NCBI RefSeq assembly: GCF_011492945.1
Contig: NZ_CP045119.1
Location: forward strand, 2,542,001-2,606,000
Length of the DNA stretch: 64,000 nt
Direction: 5' to 3'
Source: Rubrobacter tropicus
GTDB lineage: Bacteria; Actinomycetota; Rubrobacteria; Rubrobacterales; Rubrobacteraceae
Below, in pieces: positions 1,246 through 56,775 of this stretch. The stretch's first letter is position 1, and every line of letters begins with the position of its first letter. Both the position numbers and the translations under genes were made by a program. The notes under the pieces were generated by a model, which saw nothing but the letters and a program-made list of their open reading frames with translations, was not told where the DNA came from and made no database searches.

Positions 1246-1385
1246 TATACCAGCTTGTCAGCACGCTGGCTACGCCAGCTTGTCAGCACGCTGCGCCCTT
1301 CGGGCTCCGCTTGTCAGCTCGTTCCGCCCTTTGGGCTCCACTCTCAGCACGCTTCGGGCCTAAAGGCCCTCGCTATCAGCTTTCG
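1246..1385. repeat. Intergenic repeat element with hairpin array
   Basis: This spacer holds a chain of short hairpins joined by GTCAGC words: CTGGC-tac-GCCAG, GCCC-ttc-GGGC, GCCC-ttt-GGGC and GGGCC-taaa-GGCCC. It ends in iterated CTATCAGCTTTCGGCTTTCGG. The stems differ in sequence while the spacers are kept. It lies between divergent ubiA (-) and menA (+). It belongs to the dispersed family described in the findings. Confidence 0.75.
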
Positions 1386-2849: not shown

Positions 2850-3012
2850 CTCTTAGCTATCAGCTGTCAGCTTTTGGTTCGGTGCGAGCCCGACTGTACG
2901 AAGACCGCGGAGCGTTTCAGGCAGAATCTCCACGAACGAAAGCGGCGCCCCCGTGGGGAAGCGCCGCCCGCGCCAGTCTTTGGCTGACCGCTGAAAGCTG
3001 AAAGCTGATGGC
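2850..3012. repeat. Intergenic inverted-repeat element with terminator-like hairpin
   Basis: The element starts in the TAG stop of the SRPBCC gene (AGATAGCTCTTAGC), continues with CTATCAGCTGTCAGC, a roughly 110-nt core, and ends with GGCTGACCGCTGAAAGCTG in the opposite sense. The core contains a GC-rich hairpin at 2942-2967 (GCGGCGC with GCGCCGC). It separates convergent genes and could end transcription from both sides. Confidence 0.75.
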
Positions 3013-9799: not shown

Positions 9800-9950
9800 G
9801 CGGTTTGCGAAGAGGTTGGGCCTCTTCGCAGGGCCATCAGCTTTCAGCCAGGAGCAAAAGCCGACCGCTGAGAGCGGACACGAAGCCGGAGCGGGCCGAT
9901 CGCTGACGGCGCGGATCGCAGGGGCCTAAGGCCCCTGCGATCCGCTTTAA
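9800..9950. repeat. Intergenic repeat element with two hairpins
   Basis: The 391-base gap between hemL and the next gene (9604-9994) has no convincing gene. It holds the hairpin GCGAAGAGG-ttggg-CCTCTTCGC, the repeat words ATCAGCTTTCAGCCAGG and CCGACCGCTGAGAGCGG, and a long perfect stem at 9911-9945. The remainder (9604-9799) upstream of hemL shows no clear motif. Confidence 0.7.
9911..9948 (+). terminator. Terminator-like long stem-loop
   Basis: GCGGATCGCAGGGGCC pairs perfectly with GGCCCCTGCGATCCGC around a three-base TAA loop and is followed by TTT. No plus-strand gene lies just upstream, so it may instead be part of the repeat element or block read-through from either side. Confidence 0.5.
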
Positions 9951-19984: not shown

Positions 19985-20130
19985 AGCGGTTCGCAAAGAG
20001 GTCGAACCTCTTTGCGAAGCCGTCAGCTCTCAGCCATCAGCCAAGAACAATAGAGCTGATGGCTGAAAGCGGAGGCGAAGCCGGAGCGCGCTGATAGCTG
20101 ACCGCGCGGATCGCGACGTTACGGGCCGGC
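19985..20130. repeat. Intergenic repeat element
   Basis: The element begins at the glutaredoxin stop with the hairpin TTCGCAAAGAGG-tcgaa-CCTCTTTGCGAA, then GTCAGCTCTCAGCCATCAGCC, AATAGAGCTGATGGCTGAAAGC, and a GGAGGCgaaGCCGGAGC hairpin. It lies between convergent glutaredoxin (+) and hemB (-). Confidence 0.75.
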
Positions 20131-26439: not shown

Positions 26440-26588
26440 GGTTTCTTAGCTATCAGCCGTCAGCTATCAGCTTTTCGCCTGGCGGACGTTCCGTGGTCGA
26501 AGGTGATTCTCCCAGCCTGAGGCCGCTCCTCCGACCGGAAGCGTAGCCCCGGCCTTTGGCTGACCGCTGAAAGCTGACCGCTCTAAAA
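26440..26588. repeat. Intergenic inverted-repeat element
   Basis: Left end TTAGCTATCAGCCGTCAGC and CTATCAGCTTTTCGCC, a core of about 100 bases, and right end TTTGGCTGACCGCTGAAAGC with TGACCGCTCTAAAAGCGG. The ends are imperfect complements. It lies between tRNA-Sec and moaC, both minus strand. Confidence 0.75.
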
Positions 26589-26589
26589 G

Positions 26590-26678
26590 CGGAATGCGGG
26601 GGAATCGAACCGCCACGGTCGCGCCGCGACCGCAAACCGGTTTTGAAGACCGGACGGGCCACCAGGCCCACGCATTCC
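26590..26678 (-). tRNA. selC: tRNA-Sec (anticodon TCA)
   Basis: The minus strand folds as a selenocysteine tRNA: acceptor GGAATGCG pairs over eight bases with CGCATTCC, the D arm is GGGCC-TGGT-GGCCC, the anticodon arm CCGGT-CTTCAAA-ACCGG has TCA, a long variable arm GCGGTCGC/GCGACCGT follows, and the T loop is TTCGATT. One C-C mismatch appears in the T stem. No CCA is encoded. It lies 27 bases after selB, completing a selA-selB-selC unit. Confidence 0.93.
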
Positions 26679-30012: not shown

Positions 30013-30306
30013 TTGGGCGAGGGGACGACAAAATTCTTTCTTGGCGCGTCCATAGGCGCGGCCTGCGGTTTCGCGGCCGGCGCGTTCGCCGCGACCCCAA
30101 CCGCGCGCTCCGCCGGGCAATCGGCCGTCGGCGGCGTTGGCACCTCGTTCCGCTTCCTGGGCCGCGGCGCCATACGGACCGCAAAGAGCCTCGGCCCCAT
30201 CCTCGAATTCGGCTACACCCGCGTAAGGGGCAGAGAGAAGTACCTGGAGCACGAGATAGAACAGCTCAGAACCCAGATCACACGCCTAGAACAGAAGATA
30301 GATTAG
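30013..30306 (+). CDS. Small YtxH-like unknown protein
   Basis: TTG at 30013 follows GGGAGGA by four bases. The 97 residues have a Gly/Ala-rich hydrophobic N-terminal segment (FFLGASIGAACGFAAGAFAA), a middle region, and a C-terminal coiled coil (YLEHEIEQLRTQITRLEQKI). The layout, a glycine-zipper-like anchor followed by a coil, resembles YtxH-type stress or envelope proteins, but I cannot assign a function. A repeat element begins at its stop codon. Confidence 0.65.
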   Translation: MGEGTTKFFLGASIGAACGFAAGAFAATPTARSAGQSAVGGVGTSFRFLGRGAIRTAKSLGPILEFGYTRVRGREKYLEHEIEQLRTQITRLEQKID

Positions 30307-30598
30307 CTCCGCTATGCGGAGCTAATCAGCACGCTGGCTTCGCCAGCTTGTCAGCCCGGCGCTTCGCGCCTCGTCAGCACGCCCCCTCCGGGGACTCTCA
30401 GCCCGTCAGCCAGTCGTCTCTATTTGACGCACCGTCCGTCACCCGAAACGCGGCGAACGGCGCTGCCCGGTGGGGCTTTGGGCGGCCAAAAGCTGACGGG
30501 CTGAAAGCGAGGGCCTGCCAAGGCCCGAAGCGTGCTGAGAGCGGAGGCGAAGCCGCAGCGTGCTGAAAGCTGCCCGAAGGGCGGCGTGCTGACTAGCT
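30305..30598. repeat. Large intergenic repeat element with hairpin array
   Basis: About 290 bases between convergent genes. It contains AGCTCCGC-tat-GCGGAGCT, CTGGC-ttc-GCCAG, GGCGC-ttc-GCGCC and CCCC-tcc-GGGG hairpins joined by GTCAGC words, a core with CGGTGGGGCTTTGGGCGG, and the reverse-sense half AAGCTGACGGGCTGAAAGC, AAGCGTGCTGAGAGCGG. The left half and right half are imperfect complements, so the whole could fold into one long structure. Confidence 0.8.
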
Positions 30599-32240: not shown

Positions 32241-32390
32241 GATAGCCGGTCAGCACTTCAGCCGGTCAGCTCCTTGACTCCGATCCTTTCCCGGTAGTAC
32301 TCCGAGAACCACTCGTACCGCCTCGCCGGATGCATCCAACGAAATCGGTACACGGCTGGCCTGACCAGCTGAAATGCTGACCGGCTCTGA
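32240..32390. repeat. Intergenic inverted-repeat element
   Basis: It starts at the tatA-like TGA with ATAGCCGGTCAGCACTTCAGC and CCGGTCAGCTCC, has a core of about 80 bases, and ends CTGACCAGCTGAAATGCTGACC with GGCTC. The two ends are near-perfect complements (AGCCGGTCAGCAnTTCAGC against GCTGAAATGCTGACCGGCT). Confidence 0.75.
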
Positions 32391-34021: not shown

Positions 34022-34197
34022 AGCGGTCAGCCACCCGCCGTACGATGCGCTACCGCGCCGCGCCACCCGCGACGATTCGGGCGACGGGAAGCGTCGCGTA
34101 TCGAGTCGACTGGCTGAAAGCTGAAAGCGAGGGTCTGCGAAGCAGACCCGATGCGCGCCGAAAGCGGAGCCCATAGGGCGAAGCGTGCTGACAGCTA
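34020..34197. repeat. Intergenic inverted-repeat element
   Basis: It begins in the GH13 TAG stop (TAGAGCGGTCAGCC), has a core with CGACGATTCGGGCGACGGG, and ends GACTGGCTGAAAGCTG, a GGGTCTGC-gaa-GCAGACCC hairpin and GAAGCGTGCTGACAGCTAC, which meets the stop of the convergent yhaM-like gene. Confidence 0.75.
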
Positions 34198-35076
34198 CTC
34201 GGGCACGTACAGGGCGCGTCTCAGGGGGTTCTCGTGGTGGCTCCAGCCGCCGGGGCTCACGTTCTGGGTCGACTCTATGTACATGGCAGCCCTCGCGTCG
34301 AGGTTGTCTATGAGGTGGACGAGGAGGGCTTCCATGGTCTTGGGGCGTTCGGGGGAGCCGTACTCGGTCTCGCCCTGGTGCGAGATCAGGACGTGCGAGA
34401 GCTTGAGGCGTAGCTCCTCGGGGAACGCCGGTAACATTCTGATGTAGGAGGAGACGAGGCGTTCGCCGAGGACGACGTGGCCGAGGAGGCGTCCTTCGGT
34501 GGTGTAGGCGAAGCCGCCGGAGTCCCACGAGAGCTCGCGGACCTTGCCGACGTCGTGGAAGATCGCCCCGAAAAACAACAGGTCGCGGTCCACGGGGTAG
34601 ATCTCGGCCAGAGCGCGAGCGATCCGCAGACAACCAACCGAGTGCTCCAGCAGGCCGCCGATCCTGGCGTGGTGCATCCCCTTGGCCGCGGGAGCCTCGC
34701 AGAACGCCTCCCAGAAATCCTCGTCCGAGACCATCAGCTCGAAGAGCTGGCGGAGGTCCTCGCTTTCGAGCGTCCGTCCGGCTTCTTCGAGTTCGGCGGC
34801 GAGAGCCCGGCGGTCCTGCTCGGTGGCCGGAAGGTAGTCCTCTTCGTCGACCTCGTCGCGGCGCATCACCCGCAGGCGGTCGAGCTTCACCTGCAGCGTG
34901 CCGCGGTACTCGTGGGCGTTGCCCTCCACGTCCACGTAGGCAGGGCCCGGGATCTCCTGCACCAGGTCCTCCGGCAGGCGGCCCCACATGCGGGCGTCCA
35001 CGGAGCCCGTGCGGTCCACCAACTTCAGGGAGAGGTAGGGGGCGCCGCGGCTATCCTTGCGAACCGCGGCGTCCAC
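34195..35076 (-). CDS. YhaM-like 3'-5' exoribonuclease (OB fold plus HD domain)
   Basis: An OB-fold nucleic-acid-binding domain (APYLSLKLVDRTGSVDARMW) is followed by an HD domain: HHARIGGLLEHSVGCLRIA, LLFFGAIFHDVGKVREL and VLISHQGETEYGSPERPKT give the metal His/Asp set. This matches the YhaM family of exonucleases. The first canonical start is GTG at 35076, but the conserved LWARDIEAGRRLHSSFLAV is in frame upstream, and no ATG, GTG or TTG occurs there. CTG at 35157, one base after the permease stop, is a candidate. Confidence 0.85.
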   Translation of the reverse strand: MDAAVRKDSRGAPYLSLKLVDRTGSVDARMWGRLPEDLVQEIPGPAYVDVEGNAHEYRGTLQVKLDRLRVMRRDEVDEEDYLPATEQDRRALAAELEEAGRTLESEDLRQLFELMVSDEDFWEAFCEAPAAKGMHHARIGGLLEHSVGCLRIARALAEIYPVDRDLLFFGAIFHDVGKVRELSWDSGGFAYTTEGRLLGHVVLGERLVSSYIRMLPAFPEELRLKLSHVLISHQGETEYGSPERPKTMEALLVHLIDNLDARAAMYIESTQNVSPGGWSHHENPLRRALYVPE

Positions 35077-44389: not shown

Positions 44390-44545
44390 ACAGCTGTCAG
44401 CTTTCAGCCAGTGGACTCGCGGCGGAGGTTTCCCTCGGAGTCGTCTCCTCGCCGCCGACGGCAACGGGCTGCGGTCTACGCGCTATCGAAACGTCTGTAG
44501 AGTAGAAGCCGAAGGCTGACAGCTGATGGCTGACGGCTCATTCAG
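44390..44545. repeat. Intergenic inverted-repeat element
   Basis: Left end AATAGCTGACAGCTGTCAGC and TTTCAGCCAGTGG, a core with two-fold symmetry (GACTCGCGGCGGAGG near CCTCGCCGCCGAC), and right end GCCGAAGGCTGACAGCTG with ATGGCTGACGGCTC. It lies between divergent genes and so must also contain or flank their promoters. Confidence 0.7.
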
Positions 44546-52370: not shown

Positions 52371-52590
52371 AAAAGCACGCTGGCTGCGCCAGCTTTCAGC
52401 CCGGCGCTTCGCGCCTGTCAGCTTCTTTCCGCCCGTAGCCCAACAGGGCGGCGCATAAAGCGGCGGTTAGAGCGTCGTAGGGCGTGCCCGCACACAAACG
52501 ACCGGCTGACAAGCTGAAAGCCCTCGAAGAGGGCGTGCTGACAAGCGGAGGCGTTAGCCGGAGCGTGCTGACAGGCTGACAAGCCGCCGC
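52371..52590. repeat. Large intergenic repeat element between whiA and gap
   Basis: CTGGC-tgc-GCCAG and GGCGC-ttc-GCGCC hairpins, GTCAGCTTCTTTCCGCCCG, a core CCCAACAGGGCGGCGCATAA, then CCGGCTGACAAGCTGAAAGC, CCCTC-gaa-GAGGG and CGTGCTGACAGGCTGACAAG. The core is an inverted near-copy of the one at 56610-56712. The right end overlaps the whiA 3' end and provides its last codons. Confidence 0.8.
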
Positions 52591-55361: not shown

Positions 55362-55535
55362 GGTCGGCCGCGGTCAGCTATCAGCTTTCAGCGGTCAGCT
55401 TTTTGGCTCACGGCGCTTCTTGCTCTCGACAACCGAGTGTATCTGGTTCCAGGAGAGGACATGGTGCCGTAGTAATCCCACGATCGGGCTTACACAATTC
55501 TTGGCTGAAAGCTGATAGCTGACCGCTAAAAGCTA
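55362..55535. repeat. Intergenic inverted-repeat element
   Basis: Left end GGTCAGCTATCAGCTTTCAGC and GGTCAGCTTTTTGGC; core of about 100 bases; right end ACACAATTCTTGGCTGAAAGC with TGATAGCTGACCGCTAAAAGC, ending at the rapZ TAG stop. The outer 30 bases of the two ends are close complements. Confidence 0.8.
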
Positions 55536-56517: not shown

Positions 56518-56775
56518 AACGAGTCAGCCCGCTACGCCCTTGCGGGCTCCGCTTGTCAGCCCGGCGCTTCGCGCCTCGTCAGCGCGCTCCGGCTTCGCCT
56601 CCGCTTGTCAGCCTGTCAGCCGGTCGTTTGTGTGCGACGCGCCTTCCGGCACTCGAACCGCCGCTTTATACGCAGCCCTGTTGGGCTACGGGCGGAAAGA
56701 AGCTGACAGGCTGAGAGGGAGGCCCGCAAGGGCGTAGCGGGCTGAAAGCGGAAGCCGGAGGCTGGAGCGCGCTAC
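56518..56775. repeat. Large intergenic repeat element between uvrC and rapZ
   Basis: Hairpins GCCC-ttg-GGGC, GGCGC-ttc-GCGCC and GGC-ttc-GCC joined by GTCAGC words; core GTCGTTTGTGTGCGACGC to CTGTTGGGCTACGGGCGG; then AAGCTGACAGGCTGAGAGGG, CCCGC-aag-GGCGTAGCGGGCTG and AAGCGGAAGCCGGAGG. The core is an inverted near-copy of that at 52417-52511. No gene was found in these 297 bases. Confidence 0.8.

Follow-up and report, generated by a model that had tools for sequence, protein, structure and literature searches.

The closest described systems are the REP, BIME and REPIN repeats of E. coli and Pseudomonas, short extragenic palindromes that form inverted pairs around a spacer, reach hundreds of copies, show compensatory changes, lie behind genes and are rare in divergent gaps (PMC2817692, PMC3116915, PMC3733652). 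The repeat described here, the GCTGA element, resembles them in all these points. It differs from them in its head, which is GCTGA and not GTAG or CGTC, in that no Y1/RAYT gene was found, in combining several hairpin types and bare heptamers in one grammar, and in having a constant 91-bp core family and a GNA/GNNA loop rule. The class 3 TnpA-Y1 hairpins, reported mainly from Planctomycetes, Acidobacteria and Proteobacteria, share a CTGA-like 5′ foot (CnGA) and a high copy number with it, but their genes adjoin the hairpins and none was found here (PMC6006769). BOX of Streptococcus pneumoniae is likewise a modular, non-autonomous, intergenic mosaic with a varying unit number, though with a boxA-boxB-boxC grammar instead of inverted hairpin arms with a shared pentamer (PMC3049150). 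The TAACTGA repeats of Beggiatoaceae and cyanobacteria are also intergenic 7-bp repeats with CTGA, whose mechanism is not known; they are constant, direct and upstream of start codons (PMC4679880), whereas the present units consist of GCTGA and two free bases, form inverted outward pairs behind stop codons, and do not belong to that group. Palindromic and double-hairpin elements of organelles (e.g. PMC2670323) are selfish-looking small palindromes that spread between sites as well, but without the GCTGA grammar or a shared core. Ultra-stable nuclease-resistant DNA mini-hairpins of the d(GCGAAGC) type, with a “GNA or GNNA loop and at least two G-C pairs” and a Tm of 78 °C, obey the same rule as the hairpins here, though as synthetic or isolated sequences and not as a genome-wide repeat (PMC4686876). 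Stable d(cGNNAg) tetraloops have also been obtained by selection (Nakano et al. 2002, as cited in PMC9969394). No description of the GCTGA element was found in the literature searched, which omits most subscription journals, and this GCTGA-tagged mosaic hairpin repeat is apparently undescribed.

The window (the whole 64,000-nucleotide stretch analysed) is part of a 4.58-Mb, two-contig genome, the assembly of which is 97.66% complete. Its WhiA-like protein has its closest relatives in Rubrobacter and Rubrobacteraceae genomes. The hairpin arrays of the window are the arms of a non-coding, dispersed intergenic mosaic repeat of Rubrobacter, and the locus at 30305-30598 is a complete element composed of an edge hairpin, a left arm, a 91-bp core and a right arm. 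The features are as follows.

30301..30327, plus strand: edge hairpin GATTAGCTCCGC-tat-GCGGAGCTAATC, recognised by reading the sequence, which takes in the upstream gene's TAG stop codon (30304-30306)
30326..30410, minus strand: left arm, three hairpin modules with TCAGC between them (GCTGA outward) and outward-strand loops GAA, GAA and GGA
30406..30496, plus strand: 91-bp core of family 1, with conserved sequence and no conserved base pairs (nhmmer, alignment and core model R1)
30492..30592, plus strand: right arm, GCTGA-spaced hairpin modules, of which 30534-30566 is a type II module
1246..1385, minus strand: solo arm built of inward TCAGC hairpin modules (minus strand, 1283-1312 and 1314-1348), no core recognised
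52371..52590, minus strand: complete element with its core at 52418-52509 (minus), reaching into the WhiA-like gene at its 3′ end
56518..56775, plus strand: complete element with its core at 56616-56706 (plus), between putative rapZ-like and uvrC-like genes, named by position
34026..34200, minus strand: previously unlisted element; its core is at 34027-34117 (minus), and one arm has two hairpin modules
2860..3008, no strand assigned: heptamer-arm element, a (TCAGCNN) array, a 111-bp core and a (GCTGANN) array
9837..9906, no strand assigned: element with a short core and a single diverged hairpin module (9867-9899)
20023..20101, no strand assigned: element with a 13-bp core, heptamer arms and a single type II hairpin module (20062-20094)
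26453..26577, no strand assigned: heptamer-arm element, directly beside the selenocysteine tRNA (tRNA-Sec) gene at 26589-26678
32250..32380, no strand assigned: octamer-arm element with a 97-bp core
44397..44533, no strand assigned: heptamer-arm element with a 106-bp core
55374..55522, no strand assigned: heptamer-arm element with a 104-bp core

The hairpins and spacers reported in the initial annotation are present at all four of its places (30305-30598, 1246-1385, 52371-52590 and 56518-56775), and the arrays far exceed chance, a 37-base module pattern occurring at 33 places genome-wide and its reversed control at none. The four listed elements are real, though about eight further ones of the same architecture in the window were left out. 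The “TTCG-like” loops are actually triloops (TTC read inward, GAA outward) and not UUCG tetraloops, and the constancy attributed to the spacers TGTCAGC and GCACGCT holds for a pentamer, TCAGC/GCTGA.

In a complete element, inward modules ending with TCAGC are followed by the core and then by outward modules starting with GCTGA. Arrays and modules were counted in the element loci and in a 464-kb sample, and full reading covered about 10% of the genome. Among array pairs at most 250 bp apart in the 464-kb sample, 34 are arranged inward then outward and none is reversed. Core lengths in this sample range from 10 to 136 bp, with clusters of 10-20 bp, of 80-82 bp and of about 97-136 bp. The modules are bare 7-8 bp units or hairpins under one shared grammar. 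Read outward, a bare module is GCTGA plus just 2-3 bases; type I is GCTGA-AAGCGA-stem-loop-stem-GAA-GCGT, type II is GCTGA-AAGCGGA-GCCC-GAA-GGGC-GGA-GCGT, type III is GCTGA-AAG-CCCGC-GAA-GCGGG-CGT, and type IV is GCTGA-CGAGGCGC-GAA-GCGCCGG. In the modules read, the hairpins have GCTGA or GCCGA as their foot, after which come 0-3 bases. The heptamer and octamer arrays of the 464-kb sample have a spacing of 7 in 102 cases and of 8 in 53; a spacing of 6 is seen twice and one of 9 not at all. The spacings of hairpin modules include multiples of 3. The polarity of the modules flips at the core, which places GNA on the outward strand in both arms.

The 91-bp core is nearly constant in length, with a mean column identity of 76% in an alignment of 42 copies. 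As a candidate structured RNA it was rejected, RNAalifold giving no conserved pairs in 42 copies. The core sequence model has 86 matches in the own genome (about 85 copies), all on the larger contig (C1). Since none of them falls on the second contig (C2, about 205 kb), where about four are expected, C2 seems to be free of the element. BLAST with the window element at 56.5 kb gives 76 matches in the genome. Type II modules number 56 in 464 kb, and extrapolation from this sample gives about 500 hairpin modules genome-wide; the repeat is scattered behind several hundred genes. The bare triple heptamer (GCTGANN)n has 394 matches in the genome versus none for the reversed control. Adjacent spacer dinucleotides are equal in 6 of 36 cases against 4.8 expected; neighbours are thus no more alike than expected, and simple slippage is ruled out as the origin of the arrays. 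Pairing between arms was also discarded, the spacer dinucleotides of opposite arms being generally unmatched, with no base-for-base match within one element. In arms of four loci (L002, L034, L037 and L055), a type I hairpin encloses in its loop a type II hairpin flanked by GGA on either side, which looks like a duplication of the loop triplet about a new stem.

Covariation was analysed in length-pure module sets. In the 36 distinct 25-nt type II modules, 99.5% of the cells are paired with 29 double changes, and in the 22 distinct 19-nt type III modules 98.5% are paired with 24 double changes and four of the six pairs covary; these counts refer to alignment cells and not to events, and, as the modules are mutual copies, the independent changes are fewer. 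None of 500 shuffles reaches the observed level in either set, and sliding the pairing partner by 1-3 columns destroys the signal. Further stems, such as AACC/GGTT, are found in relatives. The initial annotation had held that pairing is kept while the sequence changes, and had named an absence of covariation in a larger alignment as its refutation; the larger alignments gave significant covariation in both sets, so this refutation failed.

On the outward strand, 203 of 241 apical triloops are GNA, with ATA/TTA loops on GCCC stems among the exceptions (20 of 241), and 23 of 25 tetraloops are GNNA, only nine being GNRA. The corresponding fractions in relatives are 79/84 and 4/4. A C-G pair closes 117 of 124 loops, and the internal loop of type II modules has a GNA triplet on both sides in 77 of 79 cases with N variable. 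The modules thus carry the C-G closed GNA or GNNA loop of extra-stable DNA mini-hairpins; loops and internal loops follow the published rule, from which the stability itself is predicted. Because the modules are related copies, loop conservation partly reflects shared ancestry, while the free N and the loops of the relatives argue against ancestry as the only cause.

RNA helices are expected to show a wobble bias. On the GNA strand, stems have 4 G.T, 5 A.C and 9 other mismatches in the own genome, and 4, 4 and 10, respectively, in relatives, with no excess of G.T or G.U-type wobble over A.C on either strand. Of the two marks of a structured RNA, covariation and G.U tolerance, only the former is therefore observed, and Rfam covariance models gave no match to a known RNA family. 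With RNA folding parameters, the type II module folds preferentially on its GNA strand; ordinary DNA folding parameters do not separate its strands, perhaps because they lack special motifs. Since apical and internal loops follow the mini-hairpin rule and wobble is favoured on neither strand, these patterns point to hairpins kept at the DNA rather than the RNA level. The new observations here are the GNA/GNNA apical loops, the GNA flanking the internal loop on both sides, and G.T being no commoner than A.C.

The elements are located at gene ends. With gene calls from a rough purpose-made gene finder based on position-specific GC, the median distance from an element to the flanking stop codon is 6 bp, and the element-bearing gaps comprise 35 convergent, 41 tandem and 5 divergent ones. 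A circular chromosome has as many convergent as divergent gaps, so the ratio of 35:5 is significant (two-sided binomial P ~1e-6). The last codons and the stop of the WhiA-like gene are supplied by the element, and a TAG stop codon is often part of the outermost TAGC. Tolerance, or a preference for a terminal TAGC, accounts best for the position beside stop codons; the elements might also have a function at gene ends, where they would delimit transcripts or insulate convergent genes.

The content of the sites turns over. At the intergenic site between whiA and gap, two relatives have no element (L063 and L065) and a third (L064) has one with different modules; the relatives whose sites are empty have diverged too far for target-site duplications to be compared to the base. 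Most of the 22 relative loci with a core align to an element-bearing site of the own genome, many on both flanks, in a comparison that is biased because the own-genome DNA compared was mostly element-bearing loci. In the orthologous pairs read, the elements end at the same place, several within a few bases, and core family, orientation and modules often differ. The same tRNA-Ser-like gene is followed by an element in four species (L073, L079, L091 and L116), with different modules in each. Near-identical copies are found at distant sites, namely L034/L047 (96.9% over 224 bp), L102/L117 (94.9% over 237 bp) and L108/L119 (91.9% over 295 bp). Exchange of modules and cores between sites is thus supported, and the gene-conversion half of the earlier proposal, “selection on structure or gene-conversion modules”, agrees with both the differing orthologous sites and the distant copies.

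In other species, the core model has 8-11 matches in three Rubrobacter species and two marginal ones in a fourth, and outside the genus a single marginal match in another genus. Of the nine Rubrobacter genomes searched, the own one among them, eight carry the type II module, as do four further genera of the family; none was found in the other families tested, and several complete genomes of the same family are without the element. A distant Actinomycetota family (f18, genomes mostly about 45% GC) has bare GCTGANN arrays too, in which the dinucleotides vary; most form inverted outward pairs with a short core between them, and many lie next to stop codons. Loci L212-L229 of this family (G083, G115, G125 and G145) show inverted (TCAGCNN)n-core-(GCTGANN)n beside stop codons. 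These arrays may reflect horizontal transfer or deep ancestry. The repeats of another group with large genomes (f19) were set aside as a different thing, being uniform tandem repeats.

We consider the GCTGA element to be a non-coding mosaic repeat with DNA-level hairpins that undergoes REP/BIME/REPIN-like spread and conversion between copies, with a probability of about 0.6. The hairpins would matter as single-stranded or extruded DNA, the element would spread as REP, BIME and REPIN units do through an activity that recognises GCTGA and the hairpin, and copies would overwrite one another by recombination through the shared arms, which may also flip the cores because the arms are inverted repeats. 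Most likely, the DNA hairpins are used or tolerated in the copying and exchange of units between gene ends. Against this explanation, no mobilising enzyme was found and no target-site duplication was demonstrated; the ancestry shared by the modules, the ATA/TTA loops, the DNA folding result and the biased set of orthologous sites weigh against it as well. The arms are inverted repeats, as the termini of a MITE would be, and no autonomous transposon copy was identified in the approximately 10% of the genome covered by full reading. Stems could also stay perfect with no structural selection at all, by DNA template switching (quasi-palindrome correction) and copy conversion alone. The few one-sided stem changes, the exchange of modules and cores, and the nested hairpins with the GGA triplet repeated on both sides agree with such a process, which, however, leaves unexplained the fixed G and A around a variable N in apical and internal loops, GNNA in the four-base loops, and the constant GCTGA; we regard it as doubtful, if serious. 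The label “TTCG-like” and the transcript probing proposed in the initial annotation implied RNA. On such a reading, selection on RNA would keep the pairing, and transcript hairpins would serve at 3′ ends as terminators or 3′ exonuclease blocks. A role of this kind was proposed for other REPs (PMC3733652), and the placement directly behind stop codons, the convergent bias and the preference of RNA parameters for the GNA strand are consistent with it. The missing G.U excess, the GNNA rather than GNRA tetraloops, the flip of loop polarity at the core and the lack of an Rfam match speak against it, as does the likeness of the arms near to and far from the upstream gene (76 versus 72 hairpin modules in 41 tandem contexts), which makes it rather unlikely: structural selection and conversion are both supported, but not the RNA implication.

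The phased constant pentamers with free dinucleotides resemble protein contacts, and a nucleoid or gyrase-like protein bound at convergent gene ends, as proposed for BIMEs of E. coli, would account for these and for the position; it would need neither the hairpins nor the loop rule, and the element is absent from several complete same-family genomes, so that we consider binding sites an improbable function. Inverted palindromic units, high copy number and gene-end location are what an ordinary REP/BIME moved by a Y1 (RAYT/TnpA-REP) transposase would show, and a CTGA foot recalls the CnGA-foot hairpins flanking class 3 TnpA genes (PMC6006769). However, PF01797 has no match in the own genome or in the element-bearing genome G004, while 6 of 14 control genomes match, and the few Y1 genes of G006, G008 and G003 have no GCTGA arrays around them. 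As no Y1 domain was found in the own genome, no RAYT explains the repeat here; the absence of a GTAG or CGTC head, together with a core and heptamer arms foreign to REPs, makes such a mover very unlikely. Least credible is a three-frame stop cassette, in which the 7-/8-bp phase would put the TGA of GCTGA in all frames and close translation in both directions. Neither 7 nor 8 is a multiple of 3, and TAG stop codons often make the outermost TAGC; but hairpin modules also use multiples of 3, adjacent genes mostly have their own stops, and hairpins are superfluous for a simple stop.

The repeat is REP/BIME-like in its behaviour. It consists of multi-copy extragenic palindromes in inverted pairs that avoid divergent gaps, and of palindromic modules varying in number and order, as in BIME-like mosaics broadly defined. 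By the two tests that define the REP/RAYT family it lies outside, with a GCTGA or GCCGA foot in place of GTAG (or CGTC) and no cognate Y1 transposase, which is usually repeat-flanked. The mover may be another enzyme or a lost one, or conversion alone may account for the turnover. In one genome (G026, L161:760-1400), a stretch of about 470 bp to one side of a Y1 gene is bracketed by inverted arrays of CTTCAGC and GCTGAAG heptamers, which might lead to an autonomous relative. Tentatively, the elements might represent a new class of DNA hairpins tagged by GCTGA and not by GTAG, with bare arrays in two distant Actinomycetota families and GNA hairpins added in Rubrobacteraceae, in which a non-Y1 activity moves or overwrites copies and gene-end docking sites stay fixed between species while their contents are exchanged.

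For hairpins of bacterial chromosomal repeats, sequence rarely reveals whether they are retained as DNA or as RNA. In the present case four signals point to DNA, namely the free N within fixed G and A, the symmetric internal loops, the lack of wobble bias and the polarity flip at the core, and they provide a testable case for cells forming or using ultra-stable d(GNA) hairpins. The element would also be an example of REP-like expansion with no detectable RAYT, and of gene-end docking sites that persist between species while the cargo turns over.

Long perfect hairpins without a T-tract overlap or adjoin the stop codon beside an element at 30301-30327 of the window and, as similar edge hairpins, at L043, L046, L048 and L058; another such hairpin is found at L203. 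Their sequences are locus-specific, and they may be terminators. A second shared edge motif, CTCCTCCCTTCGGTCGTCGCGCACGCT, links several elements (L037, L042, L049 and others) to the neighbouring gene.
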